Assembly: GCF_003351865.1 (NCBI RefSeq)
Contig: NZ_CP022242.1
Span: 124,001-188,000 of the forward strand
DNA: 64,000 nucleotides
Origin: Methanofervidicoccus sp. A16
GTDB taxonomy: Archaea > AGJL01 > Methanococci > Methanococcales > Methanococcaceae
Reading direction: 5' to 3'
Both the position numbers and the translations under genes were made by a program. The notes beneath the pieces are model-generated. The model was not told the DNA's origin. It was given only the letters and a program-made list of their open reading frames with translations, and did not search any database. Positions 12,642 to 59,551 of the stretch are shown here, piece by piece. The number at the start of each line of letters is the position of its first letter. The first letter of the stretch is position 1.

Positions 12642-13147
12642 TTTTTATAAAAAGAATAATTAAAATTATAAAATAAATAATGAAAAAATATATAAAAAAG
12701 TAAATTCTTATTTTTATCTCTTTTTTATTTATGGAACTACATAAGAGATATTATTGATTTTTTTAGGATTTTTACTCTCTTTTTAATTTTATTTTTATTA
12801 TAATAACCTTAGTTCCCATCAGTAGTGATTAAAAGAATAATAAAAAATAATCAATATAAAATCTATATAAAAATAAAAACTATTAAACATTCTAGGATCT
12901 TTCTGATCACTTAGTTAAGATAGAAAATCCTACTCTGAATCCCTGTATTAAAAAATATACAGAGGATCATTCTCCTTCAATATTATTTTTAAAATTTTTT
13001 GTATCTAGGATAGTAGAATTTTCTGTTTTTTAAAATCTTTTCTTTATTTTATTATTTTTTATAATTATTTTCATTATTTTTTTAAACTATCCTTTTTGAT
13101 GGGAAACTATGGTTTATAATATTATTTTTTTATGATACACTTCAACC
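12642..13147. other. Intergenic region holding a family A repeat
   Basis: About 500 bases between convergent dadD and hypD. The only structure I see is the reverse-oriented family A element listed separately. The rest is oligo-A/T without ORFs. Confidence 0.6.
12807..13112 (-). repeat. Dispersed intergenic element, family A, copy 1
   Basis: On the plus strand the element opens with CCTTAGTTCCCATCAGTAG and closes with TTTGATGGGAAACTATGG, giving imperfect terminal inverted repeats. Read on the minus strand, its core (CTCTGTAT ... ATTCAGAG, then TAGGAT-tttct-ATCTTA) matches the copies at 18328-18680 and 52104-52485. The second hairpin keeps pairing through a G-T wobble change. No ORF. Confidence 0.75.
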
Positions 13148-14224
13148 TTAAATAAACCCTCTATACTTATAAAATATATAACAGGTGCCCTCCTCGGAGA
13201 CCATACAACTTCCAACAGGATTAAGGGGAGTACAGTACTTCCCAAACAACTTACAATCAGTAGGTAACTTCTCACCTCTAAGTATCTCCCCACATATGCA
13301 GTTACTGTTTACTACCTCCTCCATCTCAGGTATATCCTCATGGCAGTATATATCGAGATCCCTGTACTTCTCCCTAAGTTTTAACCCCCCATTTTTTATT
13401 ACTGGAAAGCCCCTCCAGGGCACATCTGAAGGCTCAAATACCTCATTTATCAACCTCTGGGCGATGGGGTTTCCCTCCTCCCTAACAGCCCTTCTGTATT
13501 CGTTTTCCACTTTATAACTGTTGTTCAGTATCTGCCTCAATATCATCACTATAGATACTAAAACATCCACAGGCTCAAAACCTGCCACCACCATAGGGAC
13601 TTTATATCTCCTACAGAGTTCATGATAAGGTTTTAGCCCTGTAATGGTAGATACATGACCTGGACATATGAAACCTTGAATATTACTCCCCTCCTCCAGT
13701 AGGAACTCTACAACTGGAGGTATCTGCCTATGACAGTTTAATATGTAGAAGTTGTCTATCCCCCTCGATCTAACACTGACAACTTCGGCGGCAGTAGTTG
13801 GTGCAGTGGTTTCAAATCCAATTGCTATGAATACTACCTTCTCTCCCTCCTTCTCTGCAATCTTCACTGCATCCCCTATCCCATAGACTATCCTTATATC
13901 TGCACCCTCAGATTGTAGTTCCATAAGGGATTTTTTGCTCCCTGGCACCCTGTACATATCCCCCAATGTTGCCACTGTATAGCCCTCTTCAGCAAGATAT
14001 ATGGCGGTGTCTATCTCTTTTTGAGTAGTTACACACACTGGACATCCTGGACCTGGGATAACAGTTATATTTTCAGGTAGGACTTCCCTTATCCCGTATC
14101 TACATATAACATGCTCATGGGATCCACAGAGGTGCATTATTTTAATACTATCTAATTTACTGGAAAGTTTTTTTATTACTTCAATGGATCTTTTTATGAC
14201 TCTTCTATCGTTGATATTTATCAT
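13148..14224 (-). CDS. hypD: Hydrogenase maturation protein HypD
   Basis: A 358-residue HypD, the Fe-S scaffold that with HypC assembles the Fe(CN)2CO centre of NiFe hydrogenases. Diagnostic motifs are CGSHE (33-37), GPGCPVC (58-64) and FICPGHVS. The C-terminal [4Fe-4S] cysteines follow in NCICGEILRG, TDCKLFGKYC and GSCMVSEEG. Full length for the family. It starts at an ATG at 14224 preceded by a GTGAAAGG stretch. No other hyp gene is in the window, as is common in Methanococcales where hyp genes are scattered. Hydrogenases are central to hydrogenotrophic methanogenesis. Confidence 0.95.
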   Translation of the reverse strand: MININDRRVIKRSIEVIKKLSSKLDSIKIMHLCGSHEHVICRYGIREVLPENITVIPGPGCPVCVTTQKEIDTAIYLAEEGYTVATLGDMYRVPGSKKSLMELQSEGADIRIVYGIGDAVKIAEKEGEKVVFIAIGFETTAPTTAAEVVSVRSRGIDNFYILNCHRQIPPVVEFLLEEGSNIQGFICPGHVSTITGLKPYHELCRRYKVPMVVAGFEPVDVLVSIVMILRQILNNSYKVENEYRRAVREEGNPIAQRLINEVFEPSDVPWRGFPVIKNGGLKLREKYRDLDIYCHEDIPEMEEVVNSNCICGEILRGEKLPTDCKLFGKYCTPLNPVGSCMVSEEGTCYIFYKYRGFI

Positions 14225-18102: not shown

Positions 18103-19077
18103 TTTTTTATTTATTTTGTAATATTGAGTTATTTAAATATATGGTTGTGTTGATTAAAAAATAAATCGTAAAAAGTAAAACTTTGTTTTTATTTTTAGTC
18201 TAAATTAGAATTTTATTAGCCTTTTTAATTTGTTTTTAACTTTTTTAATTTTTAATATCCCTTAATTCCTATTAAAATAATAATTAAAAAACTAATAAAA
18301 ATCCTGGATAAAAAATAATAATATTTACCCTAATTCCCATCAAAAGAATATAGTTTAAAAAAATAATTTTAAAAAAATAATAAGGATAATTATAAAAATA
18401 AAAAATAAGAAAAGATTTTAAAATAAAACTTCTATTATCCTAGATACAAAAAATTTAAAAAGAAGATTGAAGAAGAATGATCCTCTGAATGCTCTCTAAT
18501 ACAGGGATTCAGAGTAAGATCTCCTATCTTACCTATGAGTTCAGAAAGAACTTAGGATATTCAATAGTTTTTATATAGTTTTATACTGATTATTTTAATC
18601 ATGATTTTTATTATAACAATTATTATTATTTTTCATTTTTTCACTGTTCTTTTAATCACTACTTAGATGGGAACTAAGGTTAATATATTAAAATAAAAAA
18701 GGTAAAACTATTAAATAATATTTAACCTCTTAGGATATTTCTTTCAATGTCCGAAAGTAGGTAGAAAATATCTTTTTGTTTATAATTTCAACATTACATT
18801 TATTCAAAATAAAAATATTATTTTTAATATAAATAAGGAATTTTTTATCTTTACAACAATCTTCTTTTTATATCTTTATATTTTAATAATTATTATTTTT
18901 ATCGAAATTTTTAATAGGGGATTAAAGATTATTTTATCTTTATTTTTATCCTTCTCTATAAGTTCAAAATATATACATAACCCATATTTTACTTAAAAAT
19001 AAATACATACCAGGGAACAAACTAACCAAACCTTATTTATTATTTTTAATGTTAAAACAATAAAGAGGGATTATATT
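18103..19077. other. Long intergenic region with a family A repeat
   Basis: Nearly 1 kb between tRNA-Thr and dphB. It holds the best-preserved family A element (18328-18680). The remainder is AT-rich with no ORF that I can support. Confidence 0.6.
18328..18680 (+). repeat. Dispersed intergenic element, family A, copy 2 (best preserved)
   Basis: About 350 bases bounded by CCCTAATTCCCATCAAAAG on the left and CTTAGATGGGAACTAAGG on the right. The core has a perfect 8-bp hairpin, CTCTGAAT ... ATTCAGAG, followed directly by a 7-bp hairpin, GTAAGAT-ctcct-ATCTTAC. The same order recurs in the copies at 12807-13112 (reverse) and 52104-52485. There is no ORF. Ends in inverted orientation suggest a MITE-like element; conserved hairpins leave an RNA role open. 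Confidence 0.8.
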
Positions 19078-35065: not shown

Positions 35066-35830
35066 TTTACCTTCTAAGTATTTTATTAAAAAATTGGTTT
35101 TCTATCAAGGTTTATTATTACCTTAATTTCCATTCTAAATAATAATTTAAATAATAAAAATAAGAATAATAAAAAAGACTGGAAAAATATTAAAATATAA
35201 TACTTATAATGATAAAAATTAATAATAGCAACCTGTTATAAAGGATCTACTCCAATTCCATTTGGTATCTTAGAGCGTCCCAGAAAGATTATCTCTTATT
35301 TTGATTTTAATACTTCTTCTTATACTTTTATTTTTTATAATTATTTTCATTATTCTTTAAATTATCCTTTTGATGGGAAGTAGAGTTTATTATAATTTTT
35401 TATTATTGTAATTTTATTGTGATTATTGGAATATAATCATTAAAAATAATTTAAAAAATAATAATTAGTGGGAAAATAATAAAAAATTAATAAAAAGTAG
35501 TAGAATAATCTTATAAAAAAGAATTTTTAATTTTTTTAATTATTCTATTCATTATTATTTTTCTATTTGAGGTCCTTGATGATGGTAATTTTAGGTGTCA
35601 ACAAAATATTAGAAGAAAATTATTTATCTCTTAATTTTAAGAAATAAAGGAAAATCTTCTGTTTAAGGAATCTTTATCTTATAAATACTGGAAAAGTAGG
35701 ATAGTACTCTTGTTGAATTCTTTTTTCTTTTTGTTATTTTGTATTTTTTTAAATTTTTATTTTTATAATATAAATATTATAATCCTAATATTATTATTGA
35801 TTTACTAACTTTAAAATAGGAAATTGGCCA
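35066..35830. other. Intergenic region with a family B repeat
   Basis: About 765 bases between convergent glmS and the TIM-barrel gene. It contains the reverse-oriented family B element (35121-35388). The remainder is AT-rich without ORFs. Confidence 0.55.
35121..35388 (-). repeat. Dispersed intergenic element, family B, copy 1
   Basis: Plus-strand ends are CCTTAATTTCCATTC and TTTGATGGGAAGTAGAG, like family A ends. Read on the minus strand, the core (GCTCTAAGATA, then GGAGTAGATCCTT and AACAGGTTGCTATTATTAAT) matches the copy at 59200-59453 over more than 100 bases. No ORF. Confidence 0.75.
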
Positions 35831-51931: not shown

Positions 51932-52562
51932 AAAACTGCACCAATTTTGTTTTACTTTAAACCTGAAATTTTCTCTGCTTTTCTAGTGTTCTGACATCCC
52001 GAGGAGATACAGTAAAATTTTATGTGTTTATCCAGTATTTAATTTTTTATTTATTAATTTATAAAAAATAATAAAGGCAAGTAAAAATACAATATCTTTA
52101 ATACCCTAGCTCCCATCAAAAGGATAGTTTAAAAAAAAATAATAAAAATAATTATAAAAAAAATAATTATGATAAAAAAGAAAATTTAAAAATAAATAAT
52201 AAAATAAAAATGTTTAAAAAATAAAAAACTTCTATCATCCCAGATATAAAATTTTAAAAAGAAGATTGGAGGGGAATAGCCCTCTGAATATCTTTTAATA
52301 TAGTGGATACCAGAATAAGATCTCCTATCTTACATAAGTGATTAGAAAGATCCTAGAATGTTTAATAGTATTTTATATTATAGATTTTATACTGATTATT
52401 TTAATCATGATTTTTAATTATAACAATTATTATTATTTTTCATTTTTTTATTGTTCTTTTAATCACTACTTGGTGGGAACTAAGGTATATTATTTTATAT
52501 TATCACTTTGGTGGGAACTAGGGTTCTTTAATATATTTCCAATGTTTAAGCTTTTAAATTTG
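51932..52562. other. Intergenic region with a family A repeat
   Basis: About 630 bases. The family A element at 52104-52485 fills the middle. A second end motif (CACTTTGGTGGGAACTAGGG) follows at 52504-52523. An 80-codon ORF running through the element (52338-52580) is Phe/Tyr/Ile-rich and judged spurious. Confidence 0.55.
52104..52485 (+). repeat. Dispersed intergenic element, family A, copy 3
   Basis: About 380 bases bounded by CCCTAGCTCCCATCAAAAG and CTTGGTGGGAACTAAGG. The core keeps TAAGAT-ctcct-ATCTTA, GATCCTAGAATGTTTAATAG and ACTGATTATTTTAATCATGA, shared with the other family A copies, while the CTCTGAAT hairpin is damaged on its right arm. Confidence 0.75.
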
Positions 52563-59132: not shown

Positions 59133-59199
59133 TTTTTTCTAATTTCTATCAAAGTGATGGTTTAAAAAAAATTAGATAATAATAATTATAATTAAAAAA

Positions 59200-59453
59200 C
59201 CCTAATTTCCATCAAAAAAATTCTGATAAGAATAACAATAATTATAAAAATAAAAGTATAAAAGGAAGGTATTAAAATCAGAATAAAGAGATAAATAGTC
59301 TCTCCTAGGGTGCTCTAAGATATTACGGAAGTGGAGTAGATCCTTCCTAATAGGTTGCTATTATTAATTTTATTAAAGGTATTATATTTTAATATTTTCT
59401 TAATCTTTTTATTATTTTTATTCTTTTAATCACTACTTGGTGGGAACTAAGGT
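59200..59453 (+). repeat. Dispersed intergenic element, family B, copy 2
   Basis: Ends CCCTAATTTCCATCAAAA and CTACTTGGTGGGAACTAAGG. Internally GCTCTAAGATAT, GGAGTAGATCCTT, AATAGGTTGCTATTATTAAT and TATTATATTTTAATATTTT all match the reverse complement of 35121-35388. Confidence 0.75.
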
Positions 59454-59551
59454 TTTTATATTATCATTTTGATGGGAACTAGGGTTAATTAAAAAATATA
59501 AAATAAATTTATAACAATATAAGTAAAAAGTAAAAAATATTAAACTAAAAA

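Follow-up and report, generated by a model that had tools for sequence, protein, structure and literature searches.

The window, a stretch of 64,000 nucleotides that is part of a single 1.504-Mb contig, contains three copies of a dispersed repeat, which we call family A. Copy 1 (12806–13113, reverse strand, 308 bp) lies between two convergent genes, one of which occupies 13148–14224. It has inverted ends and is flanked by an exact 8-bp target duplication, TTATAATA, at 12798–12805 and 13114–13121. Copy 2 (18327–18680, forward strand, 354 bp) was delimited through alignment and flank comparison. Its left target duplication, TAATATTT (18319–18326), matches the counterpart on the right, TAATATAT (18681–18688), at seven of eight positions. 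Copy 3 (52103–52524, forward strand, 422 bp) has two right ends in a row, 38 bp apart (inner 52472–52486, outer 52510–52524). It is the outer one that fits the target duplication, TCTTTAAT, an exact 8-bp match between 52095–52102 and 52525–52532. The alignment of the three copies showed a mean column identity of 80%, which bears out an earlier sequence-only reading of this DNA that had placed three related copies here. The locations given in that reading were right, while the limits were shifted by the 8-bp duplications to those stated above. The target-site duplications it had suggested looking for were found, in exact form at copies 1 and 3 and with one mismatch at copy 2.

Two further elements in the window belong to family B, which has the same type of ends and a different core. 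The first (59199–59485, forward strand) has its inner right end at 59453, and its flanks, read by eye, share TAATTAAAAA at the outer end. Two right ends follow each other at 59439–59485, 32 bp apart. The second (35120–35386, reverse strand) is flanked by octamers that agree at 7/8 positions. By eye, this family B copy has a left arm that resembles family A, and arms may therefore have been exchanged between the two families. Family B yielded 52 usable cores in 281595 bases, two of the 54 hits being too short and dropped.

The insertion of copy 1 was compared with the corresponding site in relatives. The gene at 13148–14224 is present in nine relatives of the same genus; five of these nine loci were uninformative, and the element was absent in all four relatives that hold both neighbour genes. 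The matched gene ends are 512 bp apart in the window, as compared with 82 (G004), 8 (G005), 0 (G008), and 2 bp (G010). This empty-site comparison was made for copy 1 only. With the element removed, the flanks of copy 1 (window 12642–12797) were still ca. 110 bp longer than in G004, and a further insertion or deletion has therefore taken place at the site.

Family A is large, as a genome-wide profile search showed. The sequence-only profile (156 nt) was built from a 40-copy alignment, to which G001 contributed one copy and the window's genome the other 39. It gave at least 117 core matches in the 1.504-Mb genome, at least 108 of them at E < 1e-13; with 150 of 2933 candidates scored, these counts may be low. 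Copy 2 used as a query on the same contig gave at least about 40 long matches (40 of 296 candidates scored). The family ends are 15-bp inverted sequences of the IS982 type, ACCCTAGTTCCCATC...GATGGGAACTAAGGT, and copies set side by side begin to resemble each other at ACCCTAG and cease to do so at CTAAGGT. With up to two mismatches, the end motif GATGGGAACTAAGG was counted 381 times genome-wide (186 + 195), as compared with nine occurrences of the reversed pattern. The terminal inverted repeats proposed from the letters alone are thus real and recur far above chance. The element length, taken from 86 end-resolved copies, had a median of 327.5 bp and a range of 235–511 bp. The proposal that the copies are intergenic and non-coding was also confirmed: all 108 strong cores stay clear of ORFs of at least 100 aa, any overlap being no greater than 30 nt, and just 3 of the 648 reading frames of these cores (six for each copy) are open. 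Gene order could be read at 65 of the 108 copies, where the neighbouring genes were on the same strand in 37 cases, convergent in 21, and divergent in 7. Two pairs of family A copies, at 903.2–903.6 kb (L165) and 1495.6–1496.0 kb (L195), have identical scores and equal spacing in both places, which suggests a segmental duplication.

Target-site duplications were then counted across the genome. The nine weakest of the 117 core matches were dropped, and 22 of the remaining 108 copies were left out since one or both ends were not found within four mismatches or the flanks were unavailable. An exact duplication of at least 7 bp was found at 36 of the 86 end-resolved copies, against an expectation of 0.95 obtained by pairing flanks between copies. 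The commonest length was 8 bp (17 copies). The duplications delimit the elements as ACC...GGT, i.e., inverted repeats with 5' AC ends, as for IS982. At the inner ends, 50 of the 86 copies had no exact duplication of 7 bp or longer (49 had at most 3 bp, one had 6). When outer ends were allowed, a duplication of at least 8 bp was observed at 47 of 108 copies (50 shuffles: mean 1.2, maximum 6) and was absent at 61; this count treats the copies at 449857 and 450358 separately, though they lie within one composite. Some copies lacking a duplication at the inner end show one at the outer end, which suggests that some nested copies moved jointly as composites.

The interiors of the elements have an unexpected organization with respect to each other. 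The variable core columns are mostly two-state, with both states common, and are nearly independent of one another. For the linkage calculation, the 12 cores (of 108) that are shorter than 140 nt were dropped, followed by seven near-duplicates among the remaining 96. In the 89 non-redundant cores, the mean r2 was 0.272 at a distance of 1–5 bp, 0.188 at 6–10 bp, 0.055 at 11–20 bp, 0.041 at 21–40 bp, 0.023 at 41–80 bp, and 0.016 beyond. Linkage was thus nearly gone beyond approximately 20 bp. The decay over the 33 sites was significant (permutation p = 0.0007), also for pairs at least 8 bp apart (p = 0.0007). The nine transversion sites alone gave p = 0.0013, and 0.004 at distances of 8 bp or more; in all 29 pairs of transversion sites separated by more than 20 bp, each of the four combinations occurs in at least three copies. 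In family B, where four near-duplicates of the 52 cores were dropped, the decay was weaker, with r2 falling from 0.074 to 0.008 (p = 0.0007 overall and p = 0.010 for pairs separated by at least 8 bp). The family A interiors behave, in statistical terms, as mosaics of short alternative blocks. We infer that the mosaicism was caused by repeated short-tract exchange between copies, through gene conversion or template switching.

The same pattern could be ascribed to independent recurrent mutation at a few hot positions, with no exchange. This would fit the nature of the variable sites, 24 of 33 being C/T or A/G, and the 2–27 changes per site required by a tree. However, independent mutation gives no fall of linkage with distance, which is what was measured over all sites and over the transversions. 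The multi-base allele at columns 102–103 also argues against it: it requires 2–4 changes on the tree and is nearly independent of the remaining core. We therefore consider mutation at hot positions an unlikely source of the mosaics and retain short-tract exchange as the explanation.

How complete this exchange has been was judged from copies that share a junction or a block. Eight copies with a common right-side junction had a core identity of 0.798, as compared with 0.797 for random copies. These eight (e.g., at 1137146, 1408190, and 1238393) adjoin the same sequence, TTTTTCTAGTCTTTTTTATT, which apparently belongs to an element of a third kind that has a right end of its own. Since a duplication is present at the junction in one of the eight, repeated insertion into a single target may explain the group instead. 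In another junction group of seven copies, the identity was 0.827, a value reached by 52 of 1000 random groups, and one junction-sharing pair was less alike (0.736). Of the four block classes tested, that at columns 102–103 gave an identity outside ±20 columns of 0.809 within the class and 0.801 between classes (p = 0.002); the other three showed no clear excess (p = 0.14–0.38). Taken together, these comparisons indicate that the exchange was extensive yet incomplete.

Orthologous insertions were also sought. At one insertion apparently common to the window's genome and G001, the core takes only 82nd place when the 108 cores are ranked by likeness to the G001 orthologue. One flank there runs without a difference for ca. 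85 bp, and the other is less alike; the contig may be chimeric at this place, given that the G001 assembly is fragmented and 64% complete. The copies at L106 and 1.108 Mb were considered as an orthologous pair on the basis of a shared neighbouring repeat and a similar core. They were rejected, as the sequences diverge beyond the element. At L104, 227 bp of the gene flank can be matched, but the elements do not align at the site.

Taken further, family A may consist of combinatorial repeats, in which copying over tens of bases keeps reshuffling blocks between copies at their existing sites, without recourse to transposition, and thereby makes each copy a new mosaic. The unchanged identity of the eight junction-sharing cores and the low rank of the G001 core hint at this. 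We put it forward tentatively, at somewhat less than an even chance. Template switching in gap repair or very short gene conversion may be the routes. According to PMC8223754, conversion tracts range from hundreds of bases in bacterial multigene families to several kilobases in Haloferax, and very short tracts are found in bacterial antigenic variation. If the loss of linkage reflects exchange, its scale here is much finer than that of the tracts of hundreds of bases and more described there, and short-tract exchange in archaea would become testable.

The end-motif matches in relatives led to a set of insertion sequences with the same ends. G023 contains two 987-bp IS982-family elements bounded by family A-type ends. 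The two open frames of the G023 element matched the NCBIfam IS982 model with E = 4.2e-28 and 3.2e-8, below the model cut-off, and two protein pieces matched the same model with E = 4.2e-28 and 2.6e-30. The second half of the G023 transposase was matched by Pfam DDE_Tnp_1 and DDE_Tnp_1_3. One of the G023 copies has an 8-bp duplication, TAATTATC, outside its ACC/GGT limits, as read by eye; it was the only clear 8-bp duplication among the insertion sequences examined. G028 has one 935-bp IS982-family element with such ends. G014 has three, of 980–1044 bp, with open frames of 260–261 aa and weaker duplications. These G014 elements are a candidate for a recently active parent. Across G014 (contigs C2, C13, C20, C21, and others), 30 pieces matched IS982, many of them from copies split by the same stop. 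A 942-bp element in G006, which belongs to the window's genus, has a left end that is exactly ACCCTAGTTCCCATC and a transposase frame with stops. Among the 41 genomes, IS982 relatives were found in 9 by protein search and in 11 by family search, and none of the matches reached the NCBIfam threshold, the best scoring 127.5 bits where 130 are required.

In the window's genome, both IS982 searches led to a single place, at 218.1–218.3 kb, where a 72-codon frame is interrupted by a stop. This decayed fragment (218.1–218.4 kb; L129, 1356–1731) is followed just downstream by the end AATGAGAACTAGGGT; the opposite end was absent at up to three mismatches. No intact IS982 transposase was found in this genome, rated 99.94% complete, by protein or family search. 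For the parental transposase that the sequence-only reading had suggested looking for, there are likely candidates in relatives, in the form of same-ended IS982 elements; in the own genome, only the decayed fragment was found. The family A interiors showed no clear similarity to seven IS982 sequences (best 40.5 bits, as compared with 37.4 for shuffled interiors). An origin of the interior by simple internal deletion of the tested insertion sequences was rejected on this comparison. As the interiors score about like shuffled ones, family A does not consist of simple deletion derivatives of these elements.

On this evidence, family A is best explained as a MITE family with IS982-type ends, mobilised in trans by an IS982-family transposase, a reading to which we assign a probability of about 90%. 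The elements are short, lack a transposase gene, have inverted ends and target duplications, and reach a high copy number, and one site is empty in relatives. Judged from the shared ends, an IS982-type transposase could act on family A. Such an enzyme would recognise the 15-bp inverted ends in trans and join the elements to AT-rich intergenic targets, duplicating 8 bp. Exchange between copies would then mix the interiors, presumably by post-excision gap repair or short conversion. Movement would have ceased for want of the enzyme. It has probably stopped, as the searches of the own genome turned up no more than a decayed piece of transposase.

The enzyme might instead belong to another transposase family with similar ends, the link to IS982 being a convergence. 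The unrelated interiors and the lack of an intact IS982 gene in the searches of the own genome would agree with this. However, the 15-bp ends match those of IS982 elements on both sides, in several genomes, one of them of the same genus. One G023 copy of IS982 also has an 8-bp duplication, and in the own genome a decayed IS982 fragment is followed by an end of this kind. Convergence is thus very improbable, and the IS982-type MITE reading is preferred.

The sequence-only reading had offered two possibilities, MITE-like remnants or a family of small RNAs with two conserved internal hairpins. The first agrees with the ends, the duplications, the empty site, and the copy number; the RNA structure on which the second depends did not hold up. 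Of 40 copies, 11 can form seven or more of the eight pairs of hairpin 1, and 32 can form six or more of the seven pairs of hairpin 2. Over both hairpins, 83.5% of the cells were paired, as compared with a shuffled mean of 83.3%, and 187 of 500 shuffles reached the observed value. Pairing in the hairpins is thus no better than in shuffles, and the G–T wobble of the copy at 12807, which had been taken as a sign that hairpin 2 is preserved despite base changes, is one of several one-sided changes. In the larger alignment, where covariation had been proposed as a check, RNAalifold predicted no pair on the 40 copies, and no consensus structure was obtained. Six copies folded singly had z-scores from −1.70 to +1.57. 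Rfam at gathering thresholds gave six tRNAs in the window, none of them at family A copies.

Selection on hairpins 1 and 2 in dispersed structured small RNAs would be in line with some of the observations. The core GC content is 28%, as compared with 24% in the non-coding DNA of the fetched stretches, and the core appears, from the look of the alignment, to be better conserved than the arms. As few as 13 of 500 shuffles attained the observed covariation score, and 36 of 500 the number of two-sided changes; these are the two of five pairing measures that lean toward RNA, and related sequences can beat shuffles without structure. The arm alleles of hairpin 1 are weakly associated in the pairing direction at four site pairs (Fisher p = 0.012, 0.033, 0.078, and 0.26, uncorrected). 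This association was considered as support for RNA and rejected, since sites that far apart show background linkage of similar size. We regard the internal hairpins as features of the sequence that give no sign of conserved RNA pairing. With pairing at the level of shuffles, no predicted consensus pair, unremarkable folding energies, no Rfam match, and target duplications at the copies, the small-RNA reading is not supported by the sequence comparisons and has hardly any credibility left. It serves as a caution that, where repeats are dispersed, hairpins and partly conserved sequence say little in favour of an RNA function.

With 73 candidates scored per genome, the core profile matched at least 3 of 41 genomes, which belong to a single genus: the window's own, G001 (at least 15 matches), and G004 (at least three, weak). 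No match was found among the candidates scored in 14 genomes of genus g5 (73 per genome). The end motif at one mismatch occurs in 25 of the 41 genomes, in several of them at control level. When copy 2 served as the query of a plain DNA search, 24 of the 41 genomes were hit; outside G001, the hits were short and came chiefly from the AT-rich arms and the ends. Viral contigs contained no exact match to the 25-nt family end, and plasmids no match to copy 2. In a species collection, the 25-mer end matched one record, Methanothermococcus okinawensis isolate SZUA-1532; records of the own genome were possibly excluded from this search.

The known systems place these elements as follows. The IS982 family is described in PMC7335449 as having AC-ended inverted repeats, a mean length of ca. 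1 kb, and direct repeats of variable length, and IS982-like elements are reported there from Methanotorris formicicus and a Methanocaldococcus. The IS982 elements that we found in archaeal genomes have the 15-bp ends of family A. Insertion sequences of the IS982 family are autonomous, whereas family A is gene-free and about one third of their length. The dispersed repeats of a related archaeon, cited in PMC2229807, are likewise scattered repeats; they were reported to have coding potential, in contrast to the non-coding family A. The lack of a core-profile match among the candidates scored in the g5 genomes is a further difference. The closest parallel is MITECca01 of Cardinium, which PMC9769881 describes as an IS982-derived element of about 240 bp, whose inverted repeats closely resemble those of an insertion sequence of the IS982 family. 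This example means that IS982-derived MITEs are already known as a kind. Both MITECca01, as portrayed there, and family A are short, lack a transposase, and have IS982-like inverted repeats. MITECca01 was judged in that paper to be derived from its parent and likely maintained by intact copies of it, whereas for family A only a decayed fragment was found and the interiors match no tested insertion sequence. Family A is a clear case of MITE expansion, and the small archaeal genome that holds it yielded no working source of transposase. Likely parents persist in relatives, so the loss of the enzyme and the freezing of the family could be dated through species comparison. What sets family A apart is the degree of its mosaicism, which is unusual.
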